Source: Diadema setosum
Taxonomy: Eukaryota > Echinodermata > Echinoidea > Diadematoida > Diadematidae
DNA length: 64,000 bases
Reading direction: 5' to 3'
Assembly (NCBI GenBank): GCA_033980235.1
Contig: CM067077.1
Span: 3,027,972 to 3,091,971 of the forward strand
In this document: piece after piece, positions 38,356-64,000 of the stretch
Layout: the number at the start of each line of letters is the position of its first letter
Numbering within the stretch: the stretch's first letter is position 1
Position numbers and translations under genes: made by a program
Notes under the pieces: generated by a model
Database searches by the model: none
Told to the model about the DNA's origin: nothing
Seen by the model: the letters and a program-made list of their open reading frames with translations, nothing else

Positions 38356-38523
38356 CTTCGCTCCTGCTGCCGATGTACAGAGGGCAAGAAAGAAATCGTC
38401 TGCTATCTTGACATCCTTTAGATATAGAGTCTGAAGGTTTGGCATGGTGCAGATACTCTTGGCGTAAGCCTCTGATGCAGCAGGGGAGATGTCAGGTCCT
38501 CGCCAGTGTTCTATTGATTGGAG
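38356..38523 (-). CDS. LRR array exon, 168 bp (two LRRs)
   Basis: 56 residues, phase 0 at both ends, from LQSIEHWRGPDISPAASEAY to DDFFLALCTSAAGAK; acceptor ...GTTAAG, donor AAG|GTATAT. Concave positions are E5, W7-R8 and Y34, K36-D37. Frame intact. Confidence 0.88.
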
Positions 38524-38599
38524 CTTAACATCAAAATAACATAAGGAATACATTAATGATATGACCATTACAAAAAGATATGACCACATTACTCCAGTT

Positions 38600-38841
38600 C
38601 TCCAATCCCCCCAATGGCTCCCCATAAATAAACGTATCAGCTTTAAATCCTCCTTATTGTTTACAAGATATGTAATAATCTTGCCCATCTTTTCTTAAAG
38701 ATTTGATTTCCTTCTGCTCATCCACTTCAACCCGTTCTCTCCGTTCTTCCTTCACTCTCCAGTTATCACGTGGTCCCCGCACCTATACCCTCAGCGGCTA
38801 CCGGTGATAGGGCTTTTTCTGTTATTTCCCCATCTCTCTGC

Positions 38842-38874
<33 letters not shown>

Positions 38875-39078
38875 ATCTACATTCGTAATTAAGTGTTGAC
38901 AAGTTCAAATCATTATCAAAAACTTATCTGTTTACTCAATCCTAATTTTGTTGCTTTTGTTGTTGCTATTGTTATATCATATGCACATGATGCTGTTTCT
39001 TACCTCATTTTTTTCCGGATTAATGTGCTTATAAACGTCAGCATTACGCGCTATATAAGGAATCAACTTTAGTGTCAT
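38600..39078 (+). mobile_element. CR1/Jockey-like LINE tail in LRR intron
   Basis: Plus-strand ORF2 C-terminal remnant and 3' UTR ending in GCGCTATATAAGGAATCAAC, opposite in direction to the host gene. An A-run (38841-38869) interrupts it. Confidence 0.72.
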
Positions 39079-39531
39079 CAATAATAAATGCTACATTCAT
39101 AACGCGCATCAAAAAACACATGCTTCTATAATTATGCGCTGTACAATTTAGATACAAAATACAAACAAATAAATGAATAACAAGTATAACGATCAATCTA
39201 ATACATTCAGTAATTCACAAAAAGGGGTTATGGATATTCTTCTTAATGATGGAAGATGGAAAAAGCGGATTTTCTTGTCATTTCTTCATCATCTCATTCG
39301 CATTAAGTGATCGTGTCCCATATCAACCTGTCAAAGGTGAACCACTTTGCTAAGACTATGTAACATGGAAAGAAACAGATATTCTTTTTTAGACCAACAC
39401 GGCGAAATATCGTTTAGTATCTCAATCACGTGTTTATTTAGTTGTTTGTTTGTGGTTTTTTTTTTTTTGTTTAATTGCAGGAAGGTTTCCCATGCATTGG
39501 AAATCAAATAAAGCAAAGAAGATGCATATAC

Positions 39532-39699
39532 CTTTGCTCCTGCTGCTGATGTAACAAGGGCAAGAAAGAAATCGTCTGCTATCTTGACATCGACAAGCTC
39601 TAACGTCTGAAGGTTTGGCATGGTGCAGATACTCTTGGCGTAAGCCTCTGATGCAGCAGGGGAGATGTCAGGTCCAGCACTGTGTGTTATTGATTGAAG
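39532..39699 (-). CDS. LRR array exon, 168 bp (two LRRs)
   Basis: LQSITHSAGPDISPAASEAY ... TLELVDVKIADDFF ... VTSAAGAK, 56 residues, phase 0-0, acceptor GGCAAAG, donor AAG|GTATAT. The cleanest match to the array consensus; a good reference copy. Confidence 0.9.
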
Positions 39700-40167
39700 C
39701 TTTGCCGCAAAATAAAAAAGGAATACATTAATGATATGACCATTACAAAAAGATATGACCACATTACTCTGACAAGTTCTCCTATTCCCTCACTGGCTCC
39801 CCAAATATAAACGTATCAGCTTTAAAAATCCTCCTTATTGTTTGCAAGATATGTAATGATCTTTTCTTAAAGATTTGATATCCTTCTGCTCATCAACTTC
39901 AACCCGTTCTCTCCGTTCTTCCTCACTCTCCAGTTATCACGTGGTCCCCGCATATACCCGCAGCGGCTACGGTGATAGGGCTTTTTGGTTATTTTCCCAT
40001 CTCTTTGCAATAAACTCCCTGTTTGCAGACTATTCTTTTTAGTTCAACATGGCGAAAACATTGGTTAGAGTATCTGAATCACGAGTTTGTTTGTTTGTTC
40101 GGTTTTTTTTTTTAAATTGCAGGAAGGTTTCCCATGCATTGGAAACCAAATGAAGAAAAGAAGATAC

Positions 40168-41140
40168 ATTCGTTCCTGCAGCTGATGTAACAAGGGCAAG
40201 AAAGAAATCGTCTGCTATCTTGACATTGACAAGCTCTAACGTCTTAACTCTAAAAAGACTGGGCTATTTTGGTAGCTCGAAAGACTGAGGGGGGAGGGGG
40301 GCTAAAAGCCCCCCCCCCCCCCCCCCCTTAAGATCTCGGCCGTGGATTCCGCGATGATTGCCACGCAAATTTGCACAATGGTAGTGTGCGATGTAATCTA
40401 CTGTACAAGATAGTATATCTAAATTTTCCAAAATGGTCTTCTTTATTGTTATTTTGATTAATTATGCTAATTTATGCGAGAAATCAGACTCTTTGATATA
40501 AATCAGTAAATAAAACTCAAGAAGTGCTCATTTTGGGTCTAATTATTCTTTGTGGCATTCTTAGCAAATGTACTCAAAAAAAAAAATCGGTACCAAAATT
40601 AATTTCTTATTCATTTTATTGTTTCATGAATTTCTTATGTATTTCTTTGTTTTTTAACCTTTTTTTTTCTTTTTTCTTTTAAAAAAATTTGTGGCAGACA
40701 TTTTTTGAAGCATAAAACTACAAAAATAAATTAATTTTAGCCATTGAGAGTAAAAATAAGCATATTTATATGAACCAGGTGGAAAAAAAAAACTCAATTT
40801 GCATTGACTTTGTACACAAAATCACATTTTGAGCCATTTTTGTAGGCCTCACGCGCATGTACATAAAGTTATGTAACTTCAGAACCGTACCCCCGGGCGT
40901 CACAAATTTGGTGTCAAAATGTGCGGGAAACTCGAAAAAAAAAAGTCATAGAGCATCGCGGCGAGAGCATTGCGTGTTGCGGAGTAATCGCGCGAAATGT
41001 CGGGGGGGGGGGGGTCTTTTAGCCCCCCCCCCCCCCGTCTTTTTAGGGTTAAGGTTTGGCATGGTGCAGATACTCTTGAAGTAGGACTCTGATGCAGCAG
41101 GGGAGATGTCAGGTCCATCATGGTGTGTTATTGATTGAAG
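40168..41140 (-). pseudogene. LRR array exon split by piggyBac-like insertion (copy 1)
   Basis: The 5' half (41053-41140) encodes LQSITHHDGPDISPAASESY and CTMPN; the 3' half (40168-40247) encodes TLELVNVKIADDFF...TSAAGTN. Removing the 801-bp element and one 4-bp TTAA leaves exactly 168 bp. Reading through from the 5' half hits a stop inside the element. The donor is also altered, AAT|GTATCT instead of AAG|GTATAT. Confidence 0.88.
40248..41048. mobile_element. piggyBac-like MITE, copy 1
   Basis: TTAA at 40244-40247 and 41049-41052; ends CTCTAAAAAGAC and GTCTTTTTAGGG. Subterminal G-run/C-run pairs occur near both ends. No transposase ORF. TTAA duplication with CCCTAAAAAGAC-type ends is the piggyBac pattern. 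Confidence 0.85.
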
Positions 41141-41217
41141 CTTGGCAGCAACAAAATATAAGCAATACATTAATGATATGACCCTAACAACAAGATATGA
41201 CCACATTCCTCTAGTTC

Positions 41218-41424
41218 TCTAATCCCCCCACTGGTTCCCCATACACCAACGTATCAGCTTTAAAATCCTCCTTATTGTTTACAAGATATGTAATAATCTT
41301 GCCCATCTTTTCTTAAAGATTTGATTTCCTTCTGCTCATCCACTTCAACCCGTTCTCTCCGTTCTTCCTCACTCTCCAGTTATCACGTGGTCCCCGCATA
41401 TACCCGCAGCGGCTACGGTGATAG
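41218..41424 (+). mobile_element. LINE tail, 5' piece, broken by the 6.6-kb element
   Basis: The frame reads SFCSSTSTRSLRSSSLSSYH as in the other tails and resumes at 48033 after the foldback element. Confidence 0.7.
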
Positions 41425-42350
41425 TAGTCCAGCGGATATAGAAAAAATCATGCACTTTATGGTAAAAGCACCATACTTGGTACACATGTACATGATGCCA
41501 ATATAAGTCATTTGTGATATGGAAGCCACTCTGATTCTCCCTTTGGCGGCCATGGCGGCCATTTTTCAAAATGGCCGCCATATGATATAGCAATGCTGCG
41601 TATTTTGGACACTATAAGTCCGATTGTCATGATTCTTGTACCAAAGTATAGGTTTTGAGGGTCAAGGATTCCAATAGAATAATTTTTGAGTGGATAAAAC
41701 CATGGCAACTTACTTCTTGGTGGCCATTTTGAAAAAATATGGCCACCATGTTAGATAAAAACATATCCTTAAAACGTATGGACAAAGGGTCATGACTCTG
41801 GTACCAACATATATGTTTTGGGGTCAAGGATTCCCATAAATTCAACTGTAAGTGAATATGAATCGCTTCATCCTACGTTTTGGCGGCCATTTTAATGAAT
41901 ATGGCTGCCATACATAGAAAATGAATATTGTATATCTTCGGACTCAAAAGATATATAATCACGATTCAAGTGTAAAAGCATAGTTTTGGGTGAAGGTTTT
42001 CAATTTAATGTTTTAGCAAAGTGAATAGGTTCATCACATCCTTTGTTTTGGCGGCCATCTGATAAATATGGCCTCCCTCCAGTTATATAGCGTACGAGTG
42101 TTATGAAAGCGGGATGCCCATTGTCGATTGATTCTGGTGTAAACGTTTGTTTTAGAGTTCAACAATTACTTGTTCACTCATTTTCAGTATTCTAATGTGG
42201 AACATCTGGGCATAGTTGACTTTGGAAGCATTTTGGAAAATATGCTCAACTTCCTTTATAGGATTTCTGTGTGTACAGTATGTGAAAAACATGATCTTCA
42301 CAATTTCATGTCTGAAGTACATATTTCTTAAGATTACACAGTTTCTAGAA

Positions 42351-42600
42351 ATGAAGAGTTTGTTTGCAAAAACCGATAAGTCCATATTTGCCAAATGGAG
42401 ATATTTGCGATTAAAGGTCAAGAAAAATAAAGAGAATAATACGAAAATTTTTGCTTCTTTTCACCACAACTTCAAAAATGTACCCTTATGTGTAGTGACC
42501 AATATATCATTTAAAAGGTATTATTTTGTACTTTATGACAGAGACCGTACTTCAAAATCTTCAAAAATGGACTTATCGGTTTTTGCGAACAAACTCTTCA
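42351..42600. mobile_element. 250-bp MITE, GAAGAGTTTGTTTGCAAAAA type, copy 1
   Basis: Inverted ends of GAAGAGTTTGTTTGC and AACCGATAAGTCCAT with a short body; a second copy is at 62956-63210. The ORF NKLFISRN... here is the repeat itself. Confidence 0.85.
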
Positions 42601-43351
42601 AATATAGACTCTCGCTTTCTCTGGTCCCTGGACCATGGAGTGAAAATCATAGTTTCCAACCAAAAATATAGTTCAAGTTCAATCATAGTTTATTTCCAAT
42701 CAACGAAAATCAAAACGTAATACAAAGTATACATATCATAAAATGATATTGTCTACACTTTTACAAAAGGTTCATGTAATATACGAAATAAATTATATAC
42801 ATCAACATATGTACAATAATCAGAAGGAACGATGCGTATACATGTATACTTCGCGAGCTTTCAGAAAATAACTTCAATTTTGGAAAATAGCGATCCACAA
42901 AAAAGCTAAGCTTGTAGGACGTGGATCCCTAGATAATTGATGAGTAAGCAATATATTATTCAAGTTTGTTTTATTATTTTCTTACAGCATTTATATTGAA
43001 TATAGATTACTTAAGTCGTTTGTAAAAATATAGCTATACGCTGGCTTCGACAATAATAGGAAATAAGTATCAATGCTAATGCCCAGACGGTGTTCATTGA
43101 ACTGGTGTACCGAGAAAATATAAGAAGGACGACACACTCGTACAGACATTCAGTTACCCACACACATATACGACGCGAGACAGTACCGAGAAGAGAGAAG
43201 ACGGTGACAATACAAGTCTACGAGGACAAAGACAGGAAGGAAGAGGAAAGAAGAATAAAGAGAGAAGAGAGGTCTGCATACAGAACACGCCAAGTGCTGC
43301 GACATCAGGACAGGTGAAACCTCAAGCATGAATTAAAACAATTAATTCAGA

Positions 43352-44703
43352 TTATCTAGAATTATAAGTAGATAACAAATGTTTTCTGAATTTGTATTTA
43401 AATGTGAGGAATGAGGGTGAGTCTTTTAAGCTATTATCTAGATTATTCCAAAGTCTGGGTCCGGTATACATAAAGGTATTTTGGGCATGTACGGTTCTCA
43501 TGAATGGAAGATGGAATTCGTTGGATCGTCGCGTAGGATAGTTATGTACATGACTGTTTCGATGAAAAGAGTCGTGAAATATTTTGGGTAAAAAGTTGCT
43601 GTTATAATTAAACATGAACTGACCAAGTTGAAACACATACAAATCTTTTATTTTTAGTATTTCATGGTAAAAAAAACAAAGGATCTGTATGTTCTCGTGT
43701 AGTTAGGTTAAAAACAGTTCTGAGCGCTTTCTTTTGCAATAAAAAAAGTTTATCAAGTAATATCTGATATGTATTACCCCAAGCAAGAATCCCGTAGTTT
43801 AGATACGGTAGTATCAAACTAGAGTAAAGAGTTAATAATGCATATGAAGGAAGATAATATTTTAATCTGTTCATTACGCCAATGTTTCGTGAAATAGTTT
43901 TACATATGCTATCAATATGATTCCTCCATGAAAGCTTGTTATCAACGCAAACACCAAGAAATTTAAAAGTAGAAACTTCTTCTAGGGGAGTAGTATCAAA
44001 TGATATATTTCCCGGGAGGCTATCTAAAGAGTTACTAAAAAGCATAAATTTTGTTTTTTGAATATTAAGTGACAATTTATTTGCGTATATCCATTGTATA
44101 ACCTTTTTTCAGTTCTTCGTTTACTGTTCTTGCTAAGATATTTGGGTCGGGATGGGAAAAGAAAAGGTTAGAGTCATCCGCGAATAATATGAATGATAGT
44201 TTCTCCGAGGATCTATGAAAATCATTGATATAAATAATGAATAACAACGGACCTAGTAAGCTCCCTTGTGGGACACCACATGTTATCGTTTTATTTTGAG
44301 AATCAAAGCCATTGACATGTACAAATTGGGATCTATTTGATAGGTAACTCGTGAACCACTCCAAGGCCTTTCCACGTATGCCATAATGGGATAATTTTGC
44401 GAGAAGTATTCCATGGTTAATCGTGTCAAAGGCCTTGGAGAAGTCCAAGAAGATACCTATCGTGTGTGAAAATGTGTCAAGTGCGTGTGTGACTTTGTCG
44501 ATAAGGGCGAGTAATGCGTGTGTTGTGCTGTGGTTTTCCCTGAATCCAAATTGAAAATTTGAAAATATGTCACAGGTTTTAAGAAAACGTACTGTCCGGA
44601 ACCAAAAATATAATACATCTGTTTTCTTTGGAAATATGACACTAAGTGTGAGAAAACTTCTAAAACTTATTGAGTCACTTTCATACATCAAATGTAAACA
44701 CAC
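43352..44703 (-). pseudogene. Dead non-LTR retrotransposon, reverse transcriptase
   Basis: Minus-strand fragments: FGFRENHSTTHALL, FLDFSKAFDTINH, CGVPQGSLLGPLLFIIYIND and the FADD catalytic motif (RT palm) at 44077-44703; NIQKTKFMLF and STFKFLGVCVDNKLSW (thumb) at 43662-44075; and the typical C-terminal HNYPTRRSNEF...GPRLWNNL...FKYKFRKHLL at 43352-43642. Frameshifts lie near 44105 and 43665, both in short homopolymer runs. It is 5' truncated (no endonuclease seen), of Jockey/CR1-like type. Confidence 0.88.
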
Positions 44704-44779
44704 TACAATTATGTATGTCTGTAAAATCCATGATTGACCAGGCTGTTCTGATACTTACAACTTCACTGAATGTTATACA

Positions 44780-45082
44780 TCAAGTGATAAAGTAAATATA
44801 ATAGGTATTATACATTGTATGATACATCTTTATAGGTTGACATCTAATTGTCATTTGCAGCGTAGTGGGTAAAGAATCGGCCTCATGAAAACAAATCAGA
44901 TCTTCTGCCAAAGTTTTGTATCCCATACCAACATCATTTCTTATATATAGACAAAGCTGGACATGATAGGTTTTTTTTTGTGTGTCATCATCTTGACATA
45001 TGAATATGATGTACTTGGTCCAATCTGTTTCTTTCCTGGGAGCTGGTTTCTCGGTTGAAATGGGCTTTGCTTTTGAAGCCAT
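44780..45082 (-). pseudogene. Fragment of a repeat-borne hypothetical protein
   Basis: A 100-codon minus ORF, MASKAKPISTEKPAPRKETD then DWTKYIIFICQDDD and GMGYKTLAEDLICFHEADSL. It resembles, from memory, the N-terminus of unannotated proteins common in repeats of marine animals (DW...CIICQ...GYKTLAE). The Cys pattern is degraded. Function unknown. Confidence 0.35.
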
Positions 45083-46290
45083 GTTATCCTACAATTAAAT
45101 CCAATTACCAATTACTTAAAAAGATAACATTTTGATGTAAATGTGCTTCACAAAGGTAAAGCAAAAAACTTATGTGTACATTTTTTTTCTAGAAATGTGA
45201 CAAACATTTTTGTTAAATGGATTTGTGCTTGTGAATTTGACCTGTTGATGTATTTGTAAAGAACAAGAACAAGGAAATATCAAATTATCTGTTTCTGTGT
45301 GTAGTTCTACTCTGAATACATTTCATGTTATAGTTGATTTATACATTGATTTTTATCAATGATTTTAGCCTCTTGAACTGAATTTTACATTACCCAAACC
45401 CCAAAGAAATTATACAAATTATTTGATGCATTTGCCATTCTCATATGGAATAAGGACTAAGGTTTCATAGTTCAAAAGCAACTTCTACAGGTAAATGGAC
45501 GATGGGCATTTCAACGCAATTTTATAACGTAACAGCGCCCATCCAAAATATAAACTACAAGAATAATTATGCTAATTTATGAATTTAAGGAAAACCTCAA
45601 TGAAATACAAATTTTGGGGTTCATAATTATTGGAAGATAAAACTGCAGAATAAAATATTCAGTATTTCGATCTTTCTACTTACCGGCACCAGTAGAAATA
45701 CTGAAGACGTTCTCTAAAGCGCACCTGCATCTACATAATTATGCATTAACGTTCATCACCGCCCATCAATGGATGATCAGGAACAATCATTGTTTTGGAT
45801 TGTCAGAGCTCATTTGATTCCTTTATATGATTCCTTATAATTTTGTGTAAGAGTTTTGACAAGGTCATACTATGAAATAATGAACAAGGACTGAGAACTT
45901 CAGAAATCAATAGGTCTTGTATAAGACTGCAATAATCATCTTTTTGTGACTGAAAACTATGACAGTACACTTATTGTACCCTCCTGTCTTTGCATCCAAA
46001 TTGGGGGGGGGGGGGGGGGGAGTCTTCTATTCCATTCTCACCATTTACTCTACCGAACTGATATTCAACATAATTATCTTTATAGTATTCCAGGTATGCA
46101 ACAATTGTACTTATTTGATGTTCAATACCTATACTTGAATAGTGAATGTGATAGAGGTATGGTCAATCAACAACATTCAATGAACAATAAAGAACTAAAC
46201 GCTGCACCAACAAATGAGGTTCATTTGCCAATAATAGGTGAACGATTCTTGTCAATGGGACAATACATATGGCAAGTGAGGGTGCATGAT
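45083..46290. other. Unassigned interior of the 6.6-kb element
   Basis: AT-rich, with a G-run at 46003-46020 and no ORF I trust. Confidence 0.4.
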
Positions 46291-46296
46291 TATATA

Positions 46297-46297
46297 A

Positions 46298-46341
<44 letters not shown>
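46297..46341. repeat. (TA)n microsatellite
   Basis: Alternating TA run next to the MITE that follows. Confidence 0.95.
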
Positions 46342-46345
<4 letters not shown>

Positions 46346-46349
46346 GACC

Positions 46350-46840
46350 TGAATATAAGAACGACCCAAGTCCAATTTTTGGCCAAATTCAGTTTGACAT
46401 GGGAAATTGTAGCTTATGCAAGGACTCATCTTGTGTATAAATGATAAATCCTAATTACCCCCGGAAGTGCCTGAAATGAATGAGTTAAATCTTATATTAA
46501 TGTAAGAATGAAGGACTTGGGTCATTCTTACATTCATATAATAGCGCCCTCTCTCATCCTTCTCTCATCTCTATAGCAGAATATCATGTATATGAATCAA
46601 AGAACGACCCAAGTCCATATGAATCAAAGAACGACCCAAGTCCACCACACAAAATGGCCTCTCCACAATTGATGTAAATGTTAATTGTCATAATAGTATA
46701 TGTTTTAATTTGAATATACAATGTTGCCTTCCCATCACAGTTAAATAGAATATTATTGGACAAATAAAAAAGATATAAAGTTTTTTTTTTAGTTTACTCG
46801 CGATGGTCTTCCATGGACTTGGGTCGTTCTTATATTCATA
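46350..46840. mobile_element. Non-autonomous DNA element, copy 2
   Basis: Inverted relative to the copy at 28987: starts TGAATATAAGAACGACCCAA and ends ACTTGGGTCGTTCTTATATT CA. It contains two adjacent GAATCAAAGAACGACCCAAG repeats near 46595-46640, an internal amplification of the end motif. Confidence 0.85.
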
Positions 46841-47340
46841 TACTCATATATATATATATATGGTGGCCCCTCAGAAAACGGAAACGAATATATTTTTTTT
46901 CAAAACCAAAATGAAATTGTCCAATTTGGTTGAGTACGTACTTTTCTTTCTAAACATGTTTTTGTTGATCATTGAATTAATTTCTTACTTTATTTCATCA
47001 AAGCTCAGCAACGGAGACTACCCAACAATTGAAGGTGAATTTTCGACAATAATCCTATTCAAGCATTCCACATTGTGATATGCGGCCTCAATTCTTTGTT
47101 AGTCTCCCAAGGCAGTGGCTTTTGTTCGATGCTGAAATTTGTTGAATTGAGCTAAGAAATTTACACTCGACCCGTCTTTACAAAAACATCTGTAGAATAA
47201 AAAATACTCTACCAAATAGAATAATTTTGGTGTCATTCTTCTTCTAGATAGATTCTCTATAACTTTATGTCATTCATTTTTGCATAAAGTAATGCAAATG
47301 TGCAAATTATTTGCAAAAACTCGCGTTTCCATTAATTCTA
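46841..47340. other. Unassigned interior of the 6.6-kb element
   Basis: Short (TA)n at 46847-46861 and AT-rich DNA; (TG)n at 47357-47391 follows. Confidence 0.4.
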
Positions 47341-48221
47341 GGCCACACTGTATATAATGTGTGTGTGCGTGTGTGCGTGTGTGTGTGTGTATGCATACTC
47401 TATGTAGTGCGGCAGTCATATTTATCGAAATGGACCTGAAAATAAGATGTGTTAGTTCTATTCATCAGCAAATGCTTGTTTAAAATCATTGACCCCCATT
47501 AGTTTCAAAGACGAACAGTATAGTATATATTGCGGTGGCCATGTTTTAAAATGGCAGCCAAAATATAGGATGTGATGGTTCTACACGAAAAGATGTATCC
47601 ATTTAAATAATTGAACCTCAAAAACATATTATTATTGTACCAGAATCATAAAGATGCATCCATTGGTTTTAAAGATGTATGAATAGAATGTAGAGCGGCA
47701 GCCATGCTTTTTTTCAAAATGGCCGCTAATAAGTAGGTTGCCATGGTTTTATCCTCTCAAAAATTATTTTATTGGAATCCTTGACCCTCAAAACCTATAC
47801 TTTGGTACAAGAATCACGACAATCGGACTTGTAGTCTCCAAAATACACAGCATTGCTAAATCACATGGCGGCCATTTTGAAAAATGGCCGCCACGGCCGC
47901 CACAGGCAGAATCAGAGTGGCTTCCATATCAGAAATGACTTGTATTGGCATCATGTACACATGTACCAAGTATGGTGCTTTTACCATAATGTGCATGATT
48001 CACCCTATATGTGTTCTATATCCGCTGGACTATAGGGCTTTTTGGTTATTTCCCCATCTCTTTGCAATAAACTCCCTGTTTGCAGACTATCCTTTTTAGT
48101 TCAACACGGCGAAAACATTGGTTAGAGTATCTGAATTACGAGTTTGTTTGTTTGTTCGGTTTTTTTTTAATTGCAGGAAGGTTTCCCATGCATTGGAAAC
48201 CAAATGAAGAAAAGAAGATAC

Positions 48222-49160
48222 ATTCGTTCCTGCAGCTGATGTAACAAGGGCAAGAAAGAAATCGTCTGCTATCTTGACATTGTCAAGCTCTAACGTCTTA
48301 ACTCTAAAAAGACTGGGCTATTTTGGTAGCTCGAAAGACTGAGGGGGGGGGGGGCTAATAGCCCCCCCCCCCCCTTAAGATCTCGGCCGTGTGTGCGATG
48401 TGTAGTGTCCGATGTAATCTACTGTACAAGATAGTATATCTAAATTTTCCAAAATGGTCTTCTTTATTGTTATTTTGATTAATTATGCTAATTTATGCGA
48501 GAAATCAGACTCTTTGATATAAATCAGTAAATAAAGCTCAAGAAGTGCTCATTTTGGGTCTAATTATTCTTTGTGGCATTCTTAGCAAATGTACTCACAA
48601 AAAAAATTCGGTACCAAAATTAATTTCTTATTCATTTTATTGTTTCATGAATTTCTTATGTATTTCTTTGTTTTAAACCTTTTGGCTTTTTCTTTTTTCT
48701 TTTAACAAAATTTGTGGCAGACATTTTTTGAAGCATAAAACTACAAAAATAAATAAATTTTAGCCATTGAGAGTAAAAATAAGCATATTTATATGAACCA
48801 GGTGAAAAAAAAAACAAACTAAATTTGCATTGACTTTGTACACAAAATCACATTTTGAGCCATTTTCGGCCTCACGCGCATGTACATAAAGTTATGTAAC
48901 TTCAGAACCGTACCCCCGGGCGTCACAAATTTGGTGTCAAAATGTGCGGGAAACTCGAAAAAAAAAAGTCATAGAGCATCGCGGCGAGAGCATTGCGTGT
49001 TGCGGAGTAATCGCGCGAAATGTCGGGGGGGGGGTCTTTTAGCCCCCCCCCCCCCCGTCTTTTTAGGGTTAAGGTTTGGCATGGTGCAGATACTCTTGAC
49101 GTAGGACTCTGATGCAGCAGGGGAGATGTCAGGTCCATCATGGTGCGTTATTGATTGAAG
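48222..49160 (-). pseudogene. LRR array exon split by piggyBac-like insertion (copy 2)
   Basis: Same arrangement as copy 1: 5' half LQSITHHDGPDISPAASESY, 3' half TLELDNVKIADDFF. Removing the 767-bp element plus one TTAA leaves 168 bp. The donor is the same altered AAT|GTATCT. Shared insertion point and shared lesion imply duplication of an already disrupted module. Confidence 0.88.
48302..49068. mobile_element. piggyBac-like MITE, copy 2
   Basis: TTAA at 48298-48301 and 49069-49072; CTCTAAAAAGAC left end, GTCTTTTTAGGG right end. Differs from copy 1 by small deletions. Confidence 0.85.
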
Positions 49161-49238
49161 CTTTGCAGCAACAAAATATAAGCAATACATTAATGATATG
49201 ACCCTTACAACAAGATATGACCACAATTACTCTAGTTC

Positions 49239-51619: not shown

Positions 51620-52605
51620 ATTCGTTCCTGCAGCTGATGTAACAAGGGCAAGAAAGAAATCGTCTGCTATCTTGACATTGACAAGCTCTAACATCTTAAC
51701 CCTAAAAAGACTGGGCTATTTTGGTAGCTCGAAAGACTGAGGGGGGGGGGGGGGGGGGGGGCTAAATGCCCCCCCTTAAGATCTCGGCCGTGGATTCCGC
51801 GATTGCCACGCAAATTTGCACAATGGTAGTGTGCGATGTAATCTACTGTACAAGATAGTATATCTAAATTTTCCAAAATGGTCTTCTTTATTTATTTTGA
51901 TTAATTATGCTAATTTATGCGAGAAATCAGACTCTTTGATATAAATCAGTAAATAAAGCTCAAGAAGTGCTCATTTTGGGTCTAATTATTCTTTGTGGCA
52001 TTCTTAGCAAATGTACTCGAAAAAAAAAATCCTTATCAAAATTAATTTCTTATTCATTTTATTGTTTCATGAATTTCTTATGTATTTCTTTGTTTTTTAA
52101 CCTTTTTTTTCTTTCTTTCTTTTAAAAAAATTTGTGGCAGACATTTTTTGAAGCATAAAACTCCAAAAATAAATTTTAGCCATTGAGAGTAAAAATAAGC
52201 ATATTTATATGAAACAGGTGAAAAAAAAATAAGCATATTTATATGAACCAGGTGAAAAAAAAAAACTCAATTTGCATTGACTTTGTACACAAAATCACAT
52301 TTTGAGCCATTTTCGGCCTCACGCGCATGTACATAAAGTTATGTAACTTCAGAACCGTACCCCCGGGCGTCACAAATTTGGTGTCAAAATGTGCGGGAAA
52401 CTCGAAAAAAAAAGTCATAGAGCATCGCGGCGAGAGCATTGCGTGTTGCGGAGTAATCGCGCGAAATGTCGGGGGGGGGGGGGACGGCTTTTAGCCCCCC
52501 CGTCTTTTTAGGGTTAAGGTTTGGCATGGTGCAGATACTCTTGACGTAGGACTCTGATGCAGCAGGGGAGATGTCAGGTCCATCATGGTGCGTTATTGAT
52601 TGAAG
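51620..52605 (-). pseudogene. LRR array exon split by piggyBac-like insertion (copy 3)
   Basis: 5' half LQSITHHDGPDISPAASESY, 3' half LELVNVKIADDFF...TSAAGTN with the same altered donor. Removing the 814-bp element plus one TTAA leaves 168 bp. Third member of the disrupted block. Confidence 0.88.
51700..52513. mobile_element. piggyBac-like MITE, copy 3 (perfect 12-bp ends)
   Basis: TTAA at 51696-51699 and 52514-52517; CCCTAAAAAGAC and GTCTTTTTAGGG are exact inverted repeats. Contains a short direct duplication of AAGCATATTTATATGAA at about 52196-52246. Confidence 0.88.
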
Positions 52606-53594: not shown

Positions 53595-53762
53595 CTTTGC
53601 TCCTGCTGCTGATGTAACAAGGGCAAAAAAGAAATCGTCTGCTATCTTGACTTTGTAAAGCTGTAACGTCTCAAGGTTTGGCATGGTGCAGATACTCTTG
53701 GCGTAAGCCTCTGATACAGCACGGGAGATGTCAGGTCCCTTCTGGTGAGTTATTGATTGAAG
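53595..53762 (-). CDS. LRR array exon, 168 bp (two LRRs)
   Basis: LQSITHQKGPDISRAVSEAY ... NLETLQLYKVKIADDFFFAL VTSAAGAK, phase 0-0, donor AAG|GTATAT. Concave residues Q7-K8 and Q34, Y36-K37. Frame intact. Confidence 0.88.
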
Positions 53763-54409: not shown

Positions 54410-54667
54410 GTGACCCGCTACAACAAAAGGATCCTAAAGTCGCTGACGGGTGAGCCGAGAAAATCGAGTTTGAAGTGAGATCACAAAAATCTGACAAAAC
54501 GTCGGATTTCTGTTTTTAACATAATCTTGTAGTATAATGTATCTTCTATCACCTGCCGAAATTTCGCAGCTAAATGATCAAAGGAAAGGCCTGAAAATAG
54601 CATTTTTCTGGGCCATGCTCGGCTCACCCGTCAGCGACTTTAGGATCCTTTTGTTGTAGCGGGTCAC
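54410..54667. mobile_element. 258-bp MITE, GTGACCCGCTACAACAAAAG ends
   Basis: The ends GTGACCCGCTACAACAAAAG and its exact reverse complement continue as GATCCTAAAGTCGCTGACGG and complement, about 50 bp per arm. Inserted in array intron sequence (GAAACNGAC|ATTCTTT). The short body shows no ORF. Confidence 0.88.
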
Positions 54668-54816
54668 ATTCTTTCTCCAACACGGCGAAAACATCGTTTA
54701 GTGTCTCAATCATCGGTTTGTTTGTTTGTTTGTTTGTTTGTTTTTGTGTTGTTTTTTTATTGCAGGAAGGTTTCCCATGCACTGGAAACAAAATGAAGCA
54801 AAGAAGATGCATATAC

Positions 54817-54984
54817 CTTCGATCCTGCTGCTGATGTACAGAGGGCAAGAAAGAAATCGTCTGCTATCTTGACATCGTTAAGCTCTAACGTCTGAAGGTT
54901 TGGCATGGTGCAGATACTCTTGGCGTAAGACTCTGATGCAGCAGGGGAGATGTCAGGTCTAGCACTGTGTGTTATTGATTGAAG
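54817..54984 (-). CDS. LRR array exon, 168 bp (two LRRs)
   Basis: LQSITHSARPDISPAASESY ... TLELNDVKIADDFFLAL CTSAAGSK; phase 0-0; donor AAG|GTATAT. The usual Gly9 is Arg. Frame intact. Confidence 0.88.
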
Positions 54985-55060
54985 CTTTGCCGCAAAATAA
55001 AAAAAAAAAGGAATACATTAATGATATGACCCTTACAAAAAGATATGACCACATTACTCT

Positions 55061-55530
55061 AGTTCTCCAATTCCCTCACTGGCTCCCCATACATAAACGT
55101 ATTAGCTTTAAAATCCTCCTTATTGTTTACAAGATATGTAATAATCTTGCCCATCTTTTCTTAAAGATTGGATTTCCCTTCTGCTCATCCACTTCAACCC
55201 GTTCTCTCCGTTCTTTCTCCACTCTCCAGTTATCACGTGGCCCCCGCAACTATACCCGCAGCGGCTTCGGTAATATGTTTTTTTTTTTCTGTTATTTCCC
55301 TACCTCTTTGCAATAAACTTCCTATCTATATTCGTAATGTAAGTGTTCACAAGTTCAAATCATTGTTGGAAACTTATCTGTTTACTCAATTCTAGTTTTG
55401 TTGTTGTTATTGCTGCTGTTGTTAAATCATATGCACATAACGCTGTACCTTACCTCATTTTTCCCCCGGATTATTGCGCTTAAAAACATCAGTATTACGC
55501 ACCATACAAGGAATCAACTTTAGTGTCATT
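55061..55530 (+). mobile_element. CR1/Jockey-like LINE tail, most readable copy
   Basis: The plus frame reads HWLPIHKRISFKILLIVYKI CNNLAHLFLK, then CSSTSTRSLRSF and, in another frame, CNKLPIYIRN and FKSLLETYLF: the C-terminal HWLPVxxRIxFKIL...RSLRSS...KSLLKTYLF block of Jockey/CR1-type ORF2. Several frameshifts. Confidence 0.8.
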
Positions 55531-55653
55531 ACTAATCTAGTGTACTTTCCTTAGACTATGTAATATGGCAATGCATTTAGAGAAACAAATTATTCTTTAT
55601 AATCCAACAGGGCGAAAACATCTTTTTGCATCTCAGTCATGCCTGTGTTTGTT

Positions 55654-55684
<31 letters not shown>

Positions 55685-55745
55685 GGTGTTTTATATTGCA
55701 GAAATATTTCCCAGTCATTGGAAATCAAGAAAAGAAAGAACATAC

Positions 55746-55913
55746 CTTTGCTCCTGCTGCTGATGTATCAAGGCCAAGAAAGAAATCGTCTGCTATCTTG
55801 ACATCGAAAAGCTGTAACCTCTGAAGGTTTGGCATGGTGCAGATACTCTTGGCGTAAGCCTCTGATGCAGCAGTGGAGATGTCAGGTCCAGCAATGTGTC
55901 TTATTGATTGAAG
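55746..55913 (-). CDS. LRR array exon, 168 bp (two LRRs)
   Basis: LQSIRHIAGPDISTAASEAY ... NLQRLQLFDVKIADDFFLGL DTSAAGAK; phase 0-0; donor AAG|GTATGT. Downstream intron start differs from the CTS/VTS-type copies (AAAGAAAAGAACATAC versus GAAGATGCATATAC region on the plus strand). Frame intact. Confidence 0.88.
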
Positions 55914-56770
55914 CTTTGCCGCAAAATAAAAAAAAAAGAATACATTAATGATATGACCATTACAAAAATATGACCACATCAATCCACTTCTCCAATTCCC
56001 TCAATGGCTAACCAAACATAAACGTATCAGCTTTAAAAATCCTCCTTATTGTGTACAAGATATGTAATAATCTTGCCCATCTTTTCTTAAACATTTGATT
56101 TCCTTCTGCTCATCAACTTCAACCCGTTCTCTCCGTTCTTTCTCCACTCTCCAGTTATCACGTGGTCCCCGCACCTATACCCGCAGCGGCTACGGTAATA
56201 TGGCTTTTTTTCTCTTATTTCCCCATCTCTTTGGAATAAACTCCCTATCTATATTCGTAATGAAAGTGCTGACTAGTTCAAAATTAATCATTGCGGGTTT
56301 TCTTTCCATCCCTTTATCATCTCATTCGCATTACATGATCGTGTCCCATATCAACCTGTCATAAACGTATAAAGGTGAAAACTATAAACATGAAATACTT
56401 TGCTAAGACTATGTAACATGGAAAGAAAAAACTATCTTTTTTAGTCCAACACGGCGAAATATCGTTTAGTATCTCAATCACGTGTTTATTTAGATGTTCG
56501 ATAGGGCTTTTTCTGGTATTTCCCCATCTCTTTGCAATAAACTCCCTATCTACATAATTATATTCGTAATGACAGTGTTGACAAGTTCAAATCATTGTTG
56601 AAAATTTATCTGTTAACTCAATCCTTATTTTGTTGTTGTTGTTGCTGCTGTTGTTATATTATACGCACATAATGCTGTACCTTAGCTCATTTTTTTTCCC
56701 GGATCAATGCGCTTAGAAACATCAGTATTACGTACCATGTAAGGAATCAACTTTATTGTCATTTATAATA

Positions 56771-57073
56771 CATGATACATTCATAAAGCGGATCAAAAAC
56801 ACATACTTCTATGTGCGTTGTATAATTCAGATAAACAATCAATATAATAGACATAATAATTAACCAATAAAAAGGTTATAAATATTCATCTTAATGATGG
56901 GAGACGGACAAAGCGGGTTATACATGATACATTCATAAAGCGGATCAAAAACACATACTTCTATGTGCGTTGTATAATTCAGATAAACAATCAATATAAT
57001 AGACATAATAATTAACCAATAAAAAGGTTATAAATATTCATCTTAATGATGGGAGACGGACAAAGCGGGTTTT
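56771..57073. repeat. Recent 152-bp tandem duplication in intron
   Basis: CATGATACATTCATAAAGCG through GGAGACGGACAAAGCGGGTT occurs twice back to back, starting at 56771 and 56923, with no difference that I see; the other introns hold one copy. Confidence 0.88.
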
Positions 57074-57354
57074 CTTTATATCCCTTCATCATCTCATTCG
57101 CATTACGTGATTGTGTCCCATATCAACCTGTCATATACGTAGAAAGGTGAAAACGATAAACATGGTAATACTTTGCTAAGACGATGTAACATGGAAAGAA
57201 ACAAACTATTCTTTTTAGTTCAACACGCCGAAAACATCGTTTAGTATCTCAATCACGTGTTTGTTTGTTTGTTTGTTTGTTTTGCGTTTTTTTTTTATTG
57301 CAGGAAGGTTTCCCATGCATTGGAAACCAAATGAAGCAAAGAAGATGCATATAC

Positions 57355-57522
57355 CTTCGATCCTGCTGCTGATGTACAGAGGGCAAGAAAGAAATCGTCT
57401 GCTATCTTCACATAGGCAAGGTCTAACGTCTTAAGGTTTGGCATGGTGCAGATACTCTTGGCGTAAGACTCTGATGCAGCAGGGGAGATGTCAGGTCCAG
57501 CACGGTGTCTTATTGTGTGAAG
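57355..57522 (-). CDS. LRR array exon, 168 bp (two LRRs)
   Basis: LHTIRHRAGPDISPAASESY ... NLKTLDLAYVKIADDFFLAL CTSAAGSK; phase 0-0. NLKT is encoded with TTAA at 57431-57434, the same spot occupied by the piggyBac-like elements in three other exons. Frame intact. Confidence 0.88.
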
Positions 57523-58682
57523 CTTTGCCGCAAAATAAAAAAAAAAGGAATACATTAATGATATGACCATTACGAAAATATGACCACATAAATGCACTTC
57601 TCCAATTCCCTCACTGGCTCCCCATACATAAACGTATTAGCTTTAAAATCCTCCTTATCGTTTACAAGATATGTAATAATCTTGCCCATCTTTTCTTAAA
57701 AATTTGATTTCATTCTGCTCATCAACTTCAGCCCGTTCTCTCCGTTCTTTCTCCACTCTCCAGTTATCACGAGGTCCCCGCACGTATACCCGCAGCGGCT
57801 ATGGTAATATGGCTTTTTTTCTCTTATTTCCCCATCTCTTTGCAATAAACTCCCTATCTATATTCGTAATGAAAGTGCTGACTAGTTCAAAATTAATCAT
57901 TGCGGGTTTTCTTTCCATCCCTTTATCATCTCATTGGCATTACATGATCGTGTCCCATATCAACCTGTCATAAACGTATAAAGGTGAAAACTATTTTTAA
58001 GCATGAAATACTTTGCTAAGACTATGTAACATGGAAAGAAAAAACTATTTTTTTTTAGTCCAACACGGCGAAATATCGTTTAGTATCTCAATCACGTGTT
58101 TATTTAGTTGTTCGATAGGGCTTTTTCTGGTATTTCCCCATCTCTTTGCAATAAACTCCCTATCTACATAATTATATTCGCAATGACAGCGTTCACAAGT
58201 TCAAATCATTGTTGAAAACTTATCTGTTAACTCAATCCTTATTTTCATTACAAAAATATGACCACATAAATCCACTTCTCCAATTCCCTCACTTATCTGT
58301 TTACTCAATCCTAACTTTGTTGTTGTTGTTGTTGCTGCTGCTGTTGTTATATCATATGCACATAATGCTGTACCTTAGCTCATTTTTTTTCCCCCGGATG
58401 AATGCCCTTAGAAACATCAGTATTACGCACCACATAAGAAATCAACTTTAGTGTCAGTACTTATCTATAGTATCTATTTATCTAGTACTTTCCTAAGACT
58501 GTGTAACATGGTAATGCATTTAGAGAAACAAACTATTCTTTATAATCCAACAGGGCGAAAACATTGTTTTGCATCTCAGTCATGCCTGTGTTTGTTCTTT
58601 TGTTTTTCTGTGTGTGTCTGTTTTATATTGCAGAAATATTTCCCAGTCATTGGAAATCAATTAAAGCACAGAAAGAACATAC

Positions 58683-58850
58683 CTTTGCTCCTACTGCTGA
58701 TGTATCAAGGGCAAAAAAGAAATCGTCTGCTATCTTGACATCGTAAAGCTCTAACGTCTGAAGGTTTGGCATGGTGCAGATACTCTTGGCGTAAGCCTTT
58801 GATGCAGCAGGGGAGATGTCAGGTCCATTCCTGTGTATTATTGATTGAAG
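58683..58850 (-). CDS. LRR array exon, 168 bp (two LRRs)
   Basis: LQSIIHRNGPDISPAASKAY ... TLELYDVKIADDFFFAL DTSAVGAK; phase 0-0; donor AAG|GTATGT. Frame intact. Confidence 0.88.
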
Positions 58851-59767
58851 CTTTGCAGCAACATAATATAAGGAATATATTATTGATATGACCATTAATA
58901 AATAAATATATAATAATCTTGCTCATATTTTCTTAAAGATTTGATTTCCTTCTGCTCATCCACTTCAACCCGTTCTCTCCGTTCTTCCTTCACTCTCCAG
59001 TTATCACGAGATCCTCGCATACCTATACCCGCAGCGGCTACTATGGTGATAGGGCTTTTTCGGTTACTACAGTATTTCCCCATCTCTTTGCAATAAACTC
59101 CCTATCTATATTCGTAATGGTAGTGTTGACCAAGTTCAAACCATTGTTGAAAACTTATCTGTTTACTCAATCCTAATTTTGTTATTGTTGTTGTTGATGT
59201 TGCTGTTATATCATATGCACATAATGCTGTATCTGTCCTCATTTTTTTTTCTCCGGATTAATGCACTTAGAAACATCAGTATTACGCGCTAAGGAATCAA
59301 CTTTAGTGTCATCAATAATAAATGCTACATTCATAAAGCTTATCATAACGCATGCTTTTATGTGCGCTGTACAATGGAGATACATAATATAAACAAACAA
59401 ATGAACAACAAGTATAACAATCAATCTAATACATACAATAATTAACAAAAAGGGTTATGAATAGTTATCTTCATGATGGAAAACGGAAAAAACGGGTTTT
59501 CTTTCCATCCCTTCATCATCTCATTTGCATTACGTGATCGTGTCCTATATCAACCTGTCATAAATGTAGAAAGGTGAAAACTATAAACATAAAATACTAT
59601 GCTAAAACTATGCAACATGGAAAGAAACAAACTACTAGTATTCTTTTTAGTCCAACATGGCGAAAACATCGTTTAGTATCTCAATCACGTGTTTGTTTGC
59701 TTGCTTGCTTTTTTAATTGCAGGAAGGTTTCCCCTGCATTGGAAACTAAATGAGGTAAAGAATTTAC

Positions 59768-59936
59768 CTTCGCTCCTGCTGCTGATGTAACAAGGGCAAG
59801 AAAAAAAAAAATCTGCTATTTTGACTTTGTATAGGTGTAACGTCTGAAGGTTTGGCATGGTGCAGATACTCTTGGGGTAGGACTCTGATACAACAGGGGA
59901 CATGTCAGGTCCGCAAAAGTGTGTTATTGATTGAAG
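59768..59936 (-). pseudogene. LRR array exon with +1 frameshift (169 bp)
   Basis: LQSITHFCGPDMSPVVSESY P... TLHLYKVKIAD, then an A-run on the plus strand (59801-59811, where intact copies read AAGAAAGAAATCG) adds one base and shifts the frame into SCPCYISSRSEG. The donor is also less regular (GTAAAT). Likely non-functional, or the run length is a sequencing error. Confidence 0.82.
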
Positions 59937-61227
59937 CTTTGCAGCAACAAAATATAAGGAATACATTAATAATATATTCCTTACAACAAGATATGACCAC
60001 ATTACTCCATGCAGTTCTCCAACCCCCCATTGGCTCCCCATACATCAACGTATCAGCTTTAAAGTTCTGCTTATTGTTTACGAGACATGAAATAAACTTG
60101 CTCCATCTTTTCTTAAAGATTGATTTCCTTCTGCTCATCCACTTCAACCCGTTCTCTCCGTTCTTCCTCCAGTCTCCAGTTATCACGTGGCCCTGCACCT
60201 ATACCCGCAGCGGCTACGGATATGGATATATGGCTTTTTTTTCTCTTATTTCCCCATCTCTTTGCAATAAACTCCCTATCTATATTCGTAATGAAAGTGC
60301 TGACTAGTTCAAAATTAATCATTGCGGGTTTTCTTTCCATCCCTTTATCATCTCATTGGCATTACATGATCGTGTCCCATATCAACCTGTCATAAACGTA
60401 TAAAGGTGAAAACTATAAACATTAAATACTTTGCTAAGACTATGTAACATGGAAAGAAACAAACTATTTTTTTAGTCCAACACGGCGAAATATCGTTTAG
60501 TATCTCAATCACGTGTTTATTTAGTTGTTCGATAGGGCTTTTTCTGGTATTTCCCCATCTCTTTGCAATAAACTCCTTATCTGTACATATATATTCGTAA
60601 TGAAAGTGTTGACAAGTTCAAACCATTGTTGAAAACTTATCTGTTTACTCAATCCTTATTTTGTTGTTGTTGTTGCTGCTGTTGTTATATCATACGCACA
60701 TAATGCTGTACCTTAGCTCATTTCCCCCCCCCCCCCCCGGATCAATGCGCTTAGAAACATCAGTATTACGTACCATGTAAGGAATCAACTTTATTGTCAT
60801 TTATAATACATGATACATTCATAAAGCGGATCAAAAACACATACTTCTATATGCGCTGTACAATTCAGATAAACAATCAATATAATAGACATAATAATTA
60901 ACCAAAAAAAAAAAGGTTATAAATATTCATCTTACTGATGGAAGACGGACAAAGCGGGTTTTCTTTATATCCCTTCATCATCTCATTCGCATTACGTGAT
61001 TGTGTCCCATATCAACCTGTCATATACGTAGAAAGGTGAAAACGATAAACATGGTAATACTTTGCTAAGACGATGTAACATGGAAAGAAACAAACTATTC
61101 TTTTTAGTTCAACACGGCGAAAATATTGGTTAGTATCTCAATTACGAGTTTGTTTGTTTGTTTGTTTTTATTGCAGGAAGTTTTCCCATGCATTGAAAAC
61201 TAAATGAAGCAAAGAAGATGCATATAC

Positions 61228-61395
61228 CTTTGCTCCTGCTGCTGATGTAACAAGGGCAAGAAAGAAATCGTCTGCTATCTTGACACCGTCAAGTTCTAAC
61301 GTCTGAAGGTTTGGCATGGTGCAGATACTCTTGGCGTAAGCCTCTGATGCAGCAGGGGAGATGTCAGGTCCAGCAAGGTGTCTTATTGTGTGAAG
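61228..61395 (-). CDS. LRR array exon, 168 bp (two LRRs)
   Basis: LHTIRHLAGPDISPAASEAY ... TLELDGVKIADDFFLAL VTSAAGAK; phase 0-0; donor AAG|GTATAT. Shares the LHTIRH start with the exon at 57355. Frame intact. Confidence 0.88.
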
Positions 61396-61469
61396 CTTTG
61401 CCGCAAAATAAAAAAAAAGGAATACATTAATGATATGACCATTACGAAAATATGACCACATAAATGCAC

Positions 61470-61936
61470 TTCTCCAATTCCCTCACTGGCTCCCCATATA
61501 TCAACGTATCAGCTTTAAAAATCCTCCTTATTGTTTACAAGATATGTAATAATCTTGCTTATCTTTTCTTAAAGATTTGATTTCATTCTGCTCATCCACT
61601 TCAGCCCGTTCTCTCCATTCTTTCTCCACTCTCCAGTTATCACGTGGCCCCCGCAACTATACCCGCAGCGGCTACGGCAATATGTTTTTTTTTTCTGTTA
61701 TTTCCCTACCTCTTTGCAATAAACTTCCTATCTATATTCGTAATGTAAGTGTTCACAAGTTCAAATCATTGTTGGAAACTTATCTGTTTACTCAATTCTA
61801 GTTTTGTTGTTGTTATTGCTGCTGTTGTTAAATCATATGCACATAATGCTGTACCTTACCTCATTTTTTCCCGGATTATTGCGCTTAAAAACATCAGTAT
61901 TACGCACCATACAAGGAATCAACTTTAGTGTCATTA
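61470..61936 (+). mobile_element. CR1/Jockey-like LINE tail in LRR intron
   Basis: Nearly identical to the tail at 55061-55530, including the CCGCAACTATACCCGCAGCG variant, showing that this intron type was copied within the array. Confidence 0.75.
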
Positions 61937-62147
61937 CTAGTCTAGTATCTACTTATCTAGTACTTTCCTATAAAGACTATGGCAATGCATTTAGAAAAAC
62001 AAATTATTCTTTATAATCCAACAGGGCGAAAACATCGTTTTGCATCTCAGTAATGCCTGTGTTTGTTTGTTTGTTTTTTCTGTGTGGGTGTTTTATATTG
62101 CAGAAATATTTCCCAGTCATTGGAAATCAAGCAAAGGAAGAACATAC

Positions 62148-62315
62148 CTTTGCTCCTGCTGCTGATGTATCAAGGGCAAAAAAGAAATCGTCTGCTATCT
62201 TGACTTTGTAAAGCTGTAACCTCTGAAGGTTTGGCATGGTGCAGATACTCTTGGCGTAAGACTCTGATACAGCAGGGGAGATGTCAGGTCCTACCTCGTG
62301 GTGTATTGATTGAAG
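62148..62315 (-). CDS. LRR array exon, 168 bp (two LRRs)
   Basis: LQSIHHEVGPDISPAVSESY ... NLQRLQLYKVKIADDFFFAL DTSAAGAK; phase 0-0; donor AAG|GTATGT. Frame intact. Confidence 0.88.
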
Positions 62316-62955
62316 CTTTGGCGCAAAATAAAAAAAGGAATACATTAATGATATGACCATTACCAAAATATGGCCACATAAATACACTTCTCCAATTCCC
62401 TCAATGGCTCCCCATACATAAACGTATCAGCTGTAAAAATCCTCCTTATTGTGTACAAGATATGTGATAATCTTGCCAATCTTTTCTTAAACATTTGATT
62501 TCCTTCTGCTCATCCACTTCAGCCCGTTCTCTCCGATCTTCCTCCAGTCTCCAGTTATCACGTGGCCCCCGCACCTATACCCGCAGCGGCTACGGCAATA
62601 TGGCTTTTTCTGTTATTTCCCCATCTCTTTGCAATAAACTCCCTATCTTTATTCGTAATGAAAGTGCTGACTAGTTCAAAATTAATCATTGCGGGTTTTC
62701 TTTCCATCCCTTTATCATCTCATTGGCATTACATGATCGTGTCCCATATCAACCTGTCATAAACGTATAAAGGTGAAAACTATAAACATGAAATACTTTG
62801 CTAAGACTATGTAACATGGAAAGAAACAAACTACTTTTTTTTTAGTCCAACGCGGCGAGATATAGTTTAGTATCTTAATCACGTGTTTATTTAGTTGTTC
62901 CATAGGGTTTTTTTTCTGGTATTTCCCCATCTCTTTGCTATAAACTCCCTATCTA

Positions 62956-63210
62956 CATATGAAGAGTTTGTTGCAAAAACCGATAAGTCCATATTTGCCA
63001 AATGGAGATATTTGCGATTAAAGGTCAAGAAAAATAAAGAGAATAATAAGAAAAATGTTGCTTCTTTTGACCGTAACTTCAAAAATGTACCTTTATATGT
63101 AGTGACCAATGTATCATTAAAAAGGTATTATTTTGTACTTTATGACAGAGATCGTACTTCAAAATCTTCAAAAATGGACTTATCGGTTTTTGCAAACAAA
63201 CTCTTCATAC
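62956..63210. mobile_element. 250-bp MITE, GAAGAGTTTGTTTGCAAAAA type, copy 2
   Basis: Same element as at 42351; ends ATGAAGAGTTTG and CAAACTCTTCAT flanked by ACAT on both sides. Inserted in the LINE tail of an array intron (CCCTATCTACAT|ATTCGTAATG in other copies). Confidence 0.85.
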
Positions 63211-63852
63211 ATATTCGTAATGACAGTGTTGACAAGTTCAAATCATTGTTGAAAACTTATCTGTTAACTCAATCCTTATTTTGTTGTTGTTGTTGCTGCT
63301 GTTGTTATATCATACGCACATAATGCTGTACCTTAGCTCATTTTTTTTCCCGGATCAATGCGCTTAGAAACATCAGTATTACGTACCATGTAAGGAATCA
63401 ACTTTATTGTCATTTATAATACATGATACATTCATAAAGCGGATCAAAAACACATGCTTCTATATGCGCTGTACAATTCAGATAAACAATCAATATAATA
63501 GACATAATAATTAACCCCAAAAAAAGGTTATAAATATTCATCTTAATGATGGAAGACGGACAAAGCGGGTTTTCTTTATACCCCTTCATCATCTCATTCG
63601 CATTACGTGATTGTGTCCCATATCAACCTGCCATATACGTAGAAAGGTGAAAACGATAAACATGGTAATACTTTGCTAAGACGATGTAACATGGAAAGAA
63701 ACAAACTATTCTTTTTAGTTCAACACGCCGAAAACATCGTTTAGTATCTCAATCACGTGTTTGTTTGTTTCTTTGTTTGTTTTGTGTTTTTTTTATTGCA
63801 GGAAGGTTTCAAATGCATTGGAAACCAAATGAAGCAAAGAAGATGCATATAC

Positions 63853-64000
63853 CTTCGATCCTGCTGCTGATGTACAGAGGGCAAGAAAGAAATCGTCTGC
63901 TATCTTGACATCGTCAAGCTGTAACTTCTGAAGGTTTGGCATGGTGCAGATACTCTTGGCGTAAGACTCTGATCCAGCAGGGGAGATGTCAGGTCCAGCA
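63853..64000 (-). CDS. LRR array exon, cut by the window edge
   Basis: 148 of an expected 168 bp: AGPDISPAGSESYAKSIC ... LQKLQLDDVKIADDFFLAL CTSAAGSK; donor AAG|GTATAT. The array continues beyond 64000, where the N-terminal part of the receptor is expected. Confidence 0.85.

Follow-up and report, generated by a model that had tools for sequence, protein, structure and literature searches.

The stretch of Diadema setosum DNA analysed here, a window of 64,000 nucleotides (assembly GCA_033980235.1, contig CM067077.1; C19:3027972-3091971), contains the 3' part of one NACHT-leucine-rich repeat (NACHT-LRR, NLR) gene, in which an array of short, repeated LRR exons is encoded on the minus strand. Sea urchins possess very large NLR families, as stated in the available part of PMC4852459. 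The array is likely to represent the half of the receptor that recognises ligands, with a concave face diversified by selection and a homogenised backbone.

The repeating unit of the array is a phase-0 exon of 168 nt, which encodes 56 amino acids and comprises two ribonuclease inhibitor (RI)-type LRRs of 29 and 27 residues. Nine whole intact exons, each open in phase 0 and bounded by an AG acceptor and a GT donor, are situated in the window (62148..62315, 61228..61395, 58683..58850, 57355..57522, 55746..55913, 54817..54984, 53595..53762, 39532..39699 and 38356..38523, the last intact one of the array). A tenth is cut by the window edge (63853..64000, continuing to 64020 past the window), and the gene as a whole contains fourteen. 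A single exon gave no Pfam match at the cut-off (LRR_2, E 0.059 and 0.11).

A first-pass annotation of this DNA had proposed that the exons differ mainly at codons 5, 7-8 and 34, 36-37, and that the two sets superimpose at an offset of 29 residues. Both proposals are borne out by the nine intact exons and the edge exon. Counted as tree-free minimum changes, 32 of 52 nonsynonymous changes fall on these six codons and 38 of 52 on the ten x positions of the LRR motifs (2, 3, 5, 7, 8, 31, 32, 34, 36 and 37), a share matched by none of 200,000 random ten-column sets. When the pattern is slid along the exon, the count reaches its maximum at shift zero (38) and its second peak at shift 29 (31), which is the repeat offset. 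Codons 20 to 30 carry no changes, silent ones included. NG86 estimates of nonsynonymous (dN) and synonymous (dS) divergence are 0.91 and 0.41 for the six codons, and 0.056 and 0.066 for the remainder of the exon. Framework L, I, V and F residues are among the conserved sites, and the variable sites are exposed motif positions.

Some corrections to the first-pass annotation apply. Position 49 is also clearly variable, with D, V or C in the window and five residues across the 31 exons analysed in the cluster; its D state is found in the window only in exons 55746, 58683 and 62148, all of which have, as judged by eye, one type of 3' flank. Positions 2, 3, 31 and 32 are moderately variable, and positions 14, 16, 18, 19 and 46 somewhat. 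Among the residue pairs originally listed for codons 7-8, FC and HD derive from broken exons (59769-59936, frameshifted; those at 40973, 48993 and 52438, split by insertions). The near-fixed backbone was confirmed, but its synonymous sites are near-fixed too (dS about 0.05 to 0.07). Due to this low dS and a backbone dN/dS of 0.8 to 0.9, the sameness of the backbone is owed more to a recent shared origin or to homogenisation than to purifying selection.

The concave-face variability pattern is real, and it holds beyond the exons on which it was first noted: among 17 intact exons from other genes of the cluster, codons 5, 7, 8, 34, 36 and 37 rank 1 to 6 and account for 31 of the 57 changes (p <= 1e-5 by permutation). 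In a set of 13 Diadema proteins, 0.58 of residue pairs differ at the six columns, compared with 0.20 elsewhere; p < 0.05 is reached in 11 of the 13, with columns 36, 7, 5 and 37 leading on average. Four units of P0011 show no backbone difference at all and a difference of 0.86 at the six columns. P0002 and P0022, near-identical D. setosum arrays which may be related as tandem genes or as haplotypes, differ at 10 of their 83 concave residues and at 6 of the remaining 692 (p 6e-7, odds ratio 15.7). A comparison of the 36 units of P0002, P0022 and P0028 with the 31 exons, which cover part of the cluster and do not amount to an allele test, showed neither an identical unit nor a six-residue signature in common.

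The introns adjoining the exons, alignable only in part, provide a neutral yardstick. Eight copies of the upstream intron show 0.25 changes per column, compared with 0.16 in the backbone and 1.78 at the concave codons (p 2e-14); for six copies of the downstream intron the corresponding values are 0.26, 0.13 and 1.67. Pairwise divergence of intron, backbone and concave codons amounts to 0.105, 0.058 and 0.452 among 80 pairs within the window gene, to 0.104, 0.042 and 0.390 among 111 pairs from other genes, and to 0.132, 0.061 and 0.456 among 192 pairs between the two groups. Concave divergence exceeds intron divergence in 79, 103 and 192 of these pairs, respectively. The six concave codons are hence about four times more diverged than the flanking introns, and the rest of the exon is less diverged than these.

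The six codons have a local dN/dS between 2.1 and 2.4, so that equal or higher synonymous divergence, named beforehand as the outcome that would refute selection, was not found. A codon model run on the backbone tree gave a concave omega of 4.9 for all 31 exons (p 0.0017) and of 10.9 for the 17 exons from other genes (p 0.00025), with values outside the concave codons of 0.87 to 1.30. A tree that included the concave codons resulted in 7.5 at concave codons and 1.24 elsewhere (31 exons); the backbone-tree run is preferred, and recombination renders the trees behind the codon model unreliable.

The placement of these codons on a concave face was assessed on P0002, a relative that stands in for the array of the window. 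Its AF2 model (mean predicted local distance difference test score, pLDDT, of 89) displays a solenoid with ribonuclease inhibitor as the top structural match, and the variable sites lie on the inner strands. The predicted fold supports the proposed RI-like LRR pair per exon with variable residues on the concave face, and agrees with the C-terminal RI-type LRR domain of animal NLRs. A sequence search of the PDB with P0002 gave no match at E 0.01, which also sets it apart from the LRR domains of ribonuclease inhibitor and NLRP proteins; P0011 gave a poor AF2 model (mean pLDDT 58), which was left aside. That near-identical exons vary mainly at six amino acids expected to face a bound target suggests selective pressure for continued change on this surface.

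Exchange between copies is indicated by the flanks of the exons. In only 8 of 31 exons is the nearest neighbour by the 5' flank also the nearest by the 3' flank, and between the exons at 57498 and 55889 the upstream intron diverges by 0.052, whereas the downstream flank is unrelated (0.407). Since the flanks are mosaic, exons or introns appear to have been exchanged among copies, and the near-identical backbones extend across the genes of the cluster. These sequence comparisons support exchange and leave the age of single concave codons uncertain.

How such an array might arise can be outlined. The gene plan consists of a death-fold-like N-terminus, a NACHT domain, many LRR-pair exons and a C-terminal tail. 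In the product, the six residues from successive units would tile a continuous putative binding face. Unequal crossing-over and gene conversion would spread a common backbone, and diversifying selection from changing targets, probably microbial ones, would retain new concave variants. Binding, function and expression of such a receptor are inferred here from the sequence.

Several observations weigh against this account. Local dS (NG86) is itself raised at the concave codons, with 0.29 to 0.38 compared with 0.05 to 0.07 in the backbone, so that the contrast between the two is not purely nonsynonymous. The expectation of dN/dS above 1 at the six codons, significant for all 31 exons and for the 17 from other genes, falls short of significance for the window gene alone (concave omega 3.2, p 0.075). 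Homogenisation combined with diversifying selection, as initially suggested, is partly supported by the signs of exchange and by a nonsynonymous excess over introns and backbone synonymous sites, but tempered by these two results. In 8 of the 111 other-gene pairs concave divergence does not exceed intron divergence. Concave and intron divergence are uncorrelated (Spearman 0.05), and because the former does not rise with the latter, the age of an intron says little about that of the individual exon. Two of the 13 Diadema proteins fall short of significance (P0006, p 0.07; P0012, p 0.10), and in this set columns 8 and 34 come no higher than 11th and 13th, after 39, 11, 31, 46, 49 and 10. In a second, neighbouring array at C19:2952200-2978199, several exons repeat identical concave triplets. 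Five LRR-pair exons in the window are broken, and the NACHT exon of the window gene has about 70 codons deleted and its frame shifted; due to this lesion the gene copy may be dead or misassembled.

Among the alternatives, a difference in age fares best and is nevertheless very unlikely. It holds that the concave codons are old, that gene conversion has overwritten the backbone and the introns, and that the concave face is now under little selection. The mosaic flanks with their low concordance, the lack of correlation between intron and concave divergence and the raised dS are all in line with it. Conversion tracts would, however, have to spare repeatedly two clusters located about 75 nt apart within one exon, and the recent arrays P0002 and P0022 are already far more different at concave sites than elsewhere. 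Moreover, synonymous differences between identical residues are just modestly raised: pairs with the same residue differ in codon in 67 of 651 cases at concave positions and in 895 of 20409 elsewhere.

Targeted hypermutation or the replacement of short codon blocks, for instance the six nucleotides of codons 7-8, acting independently of selection, is likewise very unlikely. Divergence within codons 7-8 is high at each of the three codon positions (0.63, 0.66 and 0.52), as this explanation would have it, and the raised local dS fits as well. A test is offered by a mostly broken sub-family of exons (SPVVSESYPKS...HLYK, including 59769-59936), seven copies of which occur in the cluster stretches examined, five carrying a frameshift or a stop. 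Its concave columns carry 0.44 changes each and its backbone columns 0.15, a threefold excess that is a further point against selection and that may either predate the breakage or indicate some local mutability. However, random sets of seven intact exons show 1.38 changes per concave column (2000 draws, lowest 0.78) with a similar degree of backbone change, and the three insertion-split copies differ at only 1, 1 and 0 of 9 concave nucleotides of the first LRR. The downstream flanks of the split copies and the flanks of the broken sub-family (0.232) were excluded from these comparisons as badly aligned. In addition, the same residue is mostly encoded by the same codon (at codon 36, TAC in 11/11 and GAC in 8/8; at codon 37, GAT in 22/22), and 35 of the 67 codon differences between identical residues are S and R at codon 7, which look like convergence. 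Hypermutation is weakened by both the broken copies and the codon usage of identical residues.

Relaxed constraint, under which concave residues would drift freely on a backbone kept by purifying selection, agrees with the exposed motif positions of the variable sites and the framework L, I, V and F among the conserved ones, but was rejected as very improbable, since drift should not surpass the neutral rate and concave divergence (0.452) is about four times that of introns (0.105), so that selection, hypermutation or an age difference is required, and since the backbone is not strongly constrained (dN/dS 0.8 to 0.9; omega 0.87 to 1.30).

Selection on the concave face of exchanged exons resembles regimes described for other NLR proteins. 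In the accessible part of the work on Podospora NWD genes, including het-d and het-e, internally similar repeats are exchanged within and between genes and evolve in concert; four codons of each WD repeat, located on the interaction face, are under positive selection, giving 55 combinations in 69 repeats, and fungal repeat-induced point mutation (RIP) is proposed to add mutations (Paoletti et al. 2007, PMC1805685). As far as that part describes them, the Diadema exons share with the NWD genes the exchange of similar repeats, seen here as mosaic flanks and near-identical backbones, and an excess of dN over dS at a small number of interaction-face codons in each repeat, although in the codon model the window gene alone did not reach significance. 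They are unlike them in that the LRR pairs lie on separate exons; the Podospora genes have WD repeats and an allorecognition function. RIP is not known in animals. The same regime has been extended to ANK and TPR repeats in PMC4986451, where no LRR motifs were found in fungal NLRs. Our best reading of the comparison is that the array may be an animal LRR version of this fungal regime of concerted evolution plus diversifying selection.

Plant highly variable NLRs (hvNLRs) are NB-ARC receptors. According to the excerpted text of PMC8226289, they vary strongly on the face of the LRR domain, at the x positions of LxxLxLxx, as do the Diadema exons, but there the variability lies between alleles and in one or two surface clusters, not in repeated near-identical exons. 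For P0011 and P0017 Pfam lists NACHT and not the NB-ARC of hvNLRs; some more distant relatives bear a PF00931 label alongside NACHT. Zebrafish NLR-B30.2 genes resemble those of Diadema in that they form a large animal NLR family with each LRR on its own repeated exon and with gene conversion. Unlike in Diadema, where the variability sits in the LRRs, signs of positive selection are reported there for B30.2, and the LRRs are said to show no particular variability in the part of PMC4852459 available. The literature searched, outside which most subscription papers fall, contained no report of the pattern in Diadema and no comparable animal LRR case, and the word NLR is absent from the main texts of the two D. 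setosum genome papers.

The sequence itself singles out six residues in each 56-residue exon; the introns serve as neutral controls, and the partly broken copies add another. With its many concave-face variants on a shared scaffold, the array amounts to a naturally occurring library, and it would bring the regime of fungal WD, ANK and TPR NLRs (PMC4986451) to an animal LRR receptor. A further, rather doubtful possibility is that the array is read combinatorially, with alternative splicing skipping or choosing exons and generating many receptor surfaces per gene. This is conceivable because every intact LRR-pair exon is of phase 0-0 and therefore interchangeable. Two annotated D. antillarum isoforms, P0005 and P0008, differ in length by exactly 56 residues, i.e. 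one unit, a difference which rests on gene models and is compatible with such splicing. It would be a splicing-based parallel to the assembly of lamprey variable lymphocyte receptors (VLRs).

The array is part of a cluster of about 0.9 Mb, as matches to a 24-base exon core (at least 46) are, among those listed, confined to C19, 2.44-3.35 Mb, all on the minus strand. Protein matches to the LRR-pair exons come from Diadema in 18 of 19 cases. In the second array mentioned above, six exons carry three extra residues after codon 9, and the array appears recently expanded. With 200 kb of sequence past the window included, the gene was traced by homology to D. antillarum P0011 and P0017. In extended window coordinates, and on the minus strand, it comprises N-terminal exons (92966-92856 and 92202-91912), a NACHT exon (about 83001-81564), a cap LRR exon (81228-80974) and LRR-pair exons from 73987 down to 36822. 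The NACHT homology spans 83001-81642 with 80 to 84% to P0011, whose own NACHT domain is recognised by Pfam (PF05729, E 2.8e-23). The Pfam Death match of P0011 (E 0.018) lies under the curated cut-off; the corresponding exon of the window gene is 92202-91912. Relatives with an annotated NACHT domain and a comparable LRR-pair array exist, among them D. setosum P0022 with NACHT, LRR domains and 13 units, and membership of the window gene in the NLR family is supported by this homology.

Downstream of the array, three C-terminal exons follow on the minus strand, with ends set by eye, those of the first from AG and GT: 35973..36080 (IQR...), 32749..33104 (67% to P0017 over 129 aa) and 31844..31941 (70% to P0017 over 30 aa). 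The broken LRR-pair exons, on the same strand, comprise 59769..59936, with its frameshift at a poly-T run; 36822..36989, which is degenerate and loses similarity past codon 28; and three copies split after codon 30, namely 51623..52605 (matched halves 52513-52605 and 51623-51697), 48225..49160 (49068-49160 and 48225-48302) and 40171..41140 (41048-41140 and 40171-40248). The inserts are mobile-element-like with poly-G/C stretches, and their position after the same codon in all three copies suggests a block duplication following a single insertion.

A minus-strand reverse transcriptase open reading frame (44077-44754; RVT_1, E 2e-24) marks a retroelement fragment inside the array. An intron holds, at 56768-57071, two identical tandem copies of a 152-nt unit, diverged copies of which (76-77%) are found at 60806 and 63419. 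Outside the array, a plus-strand open reading frame at 201-407 matches the beta-lactamase family (PF00144, E 1.4e-9) and is possibly an exon of a neighbouring gene. Two tandem arrays at 7226-7414 and 7856-8048, separated by about 440 bases, consist of 15-nt units that are mutually reverse complement.

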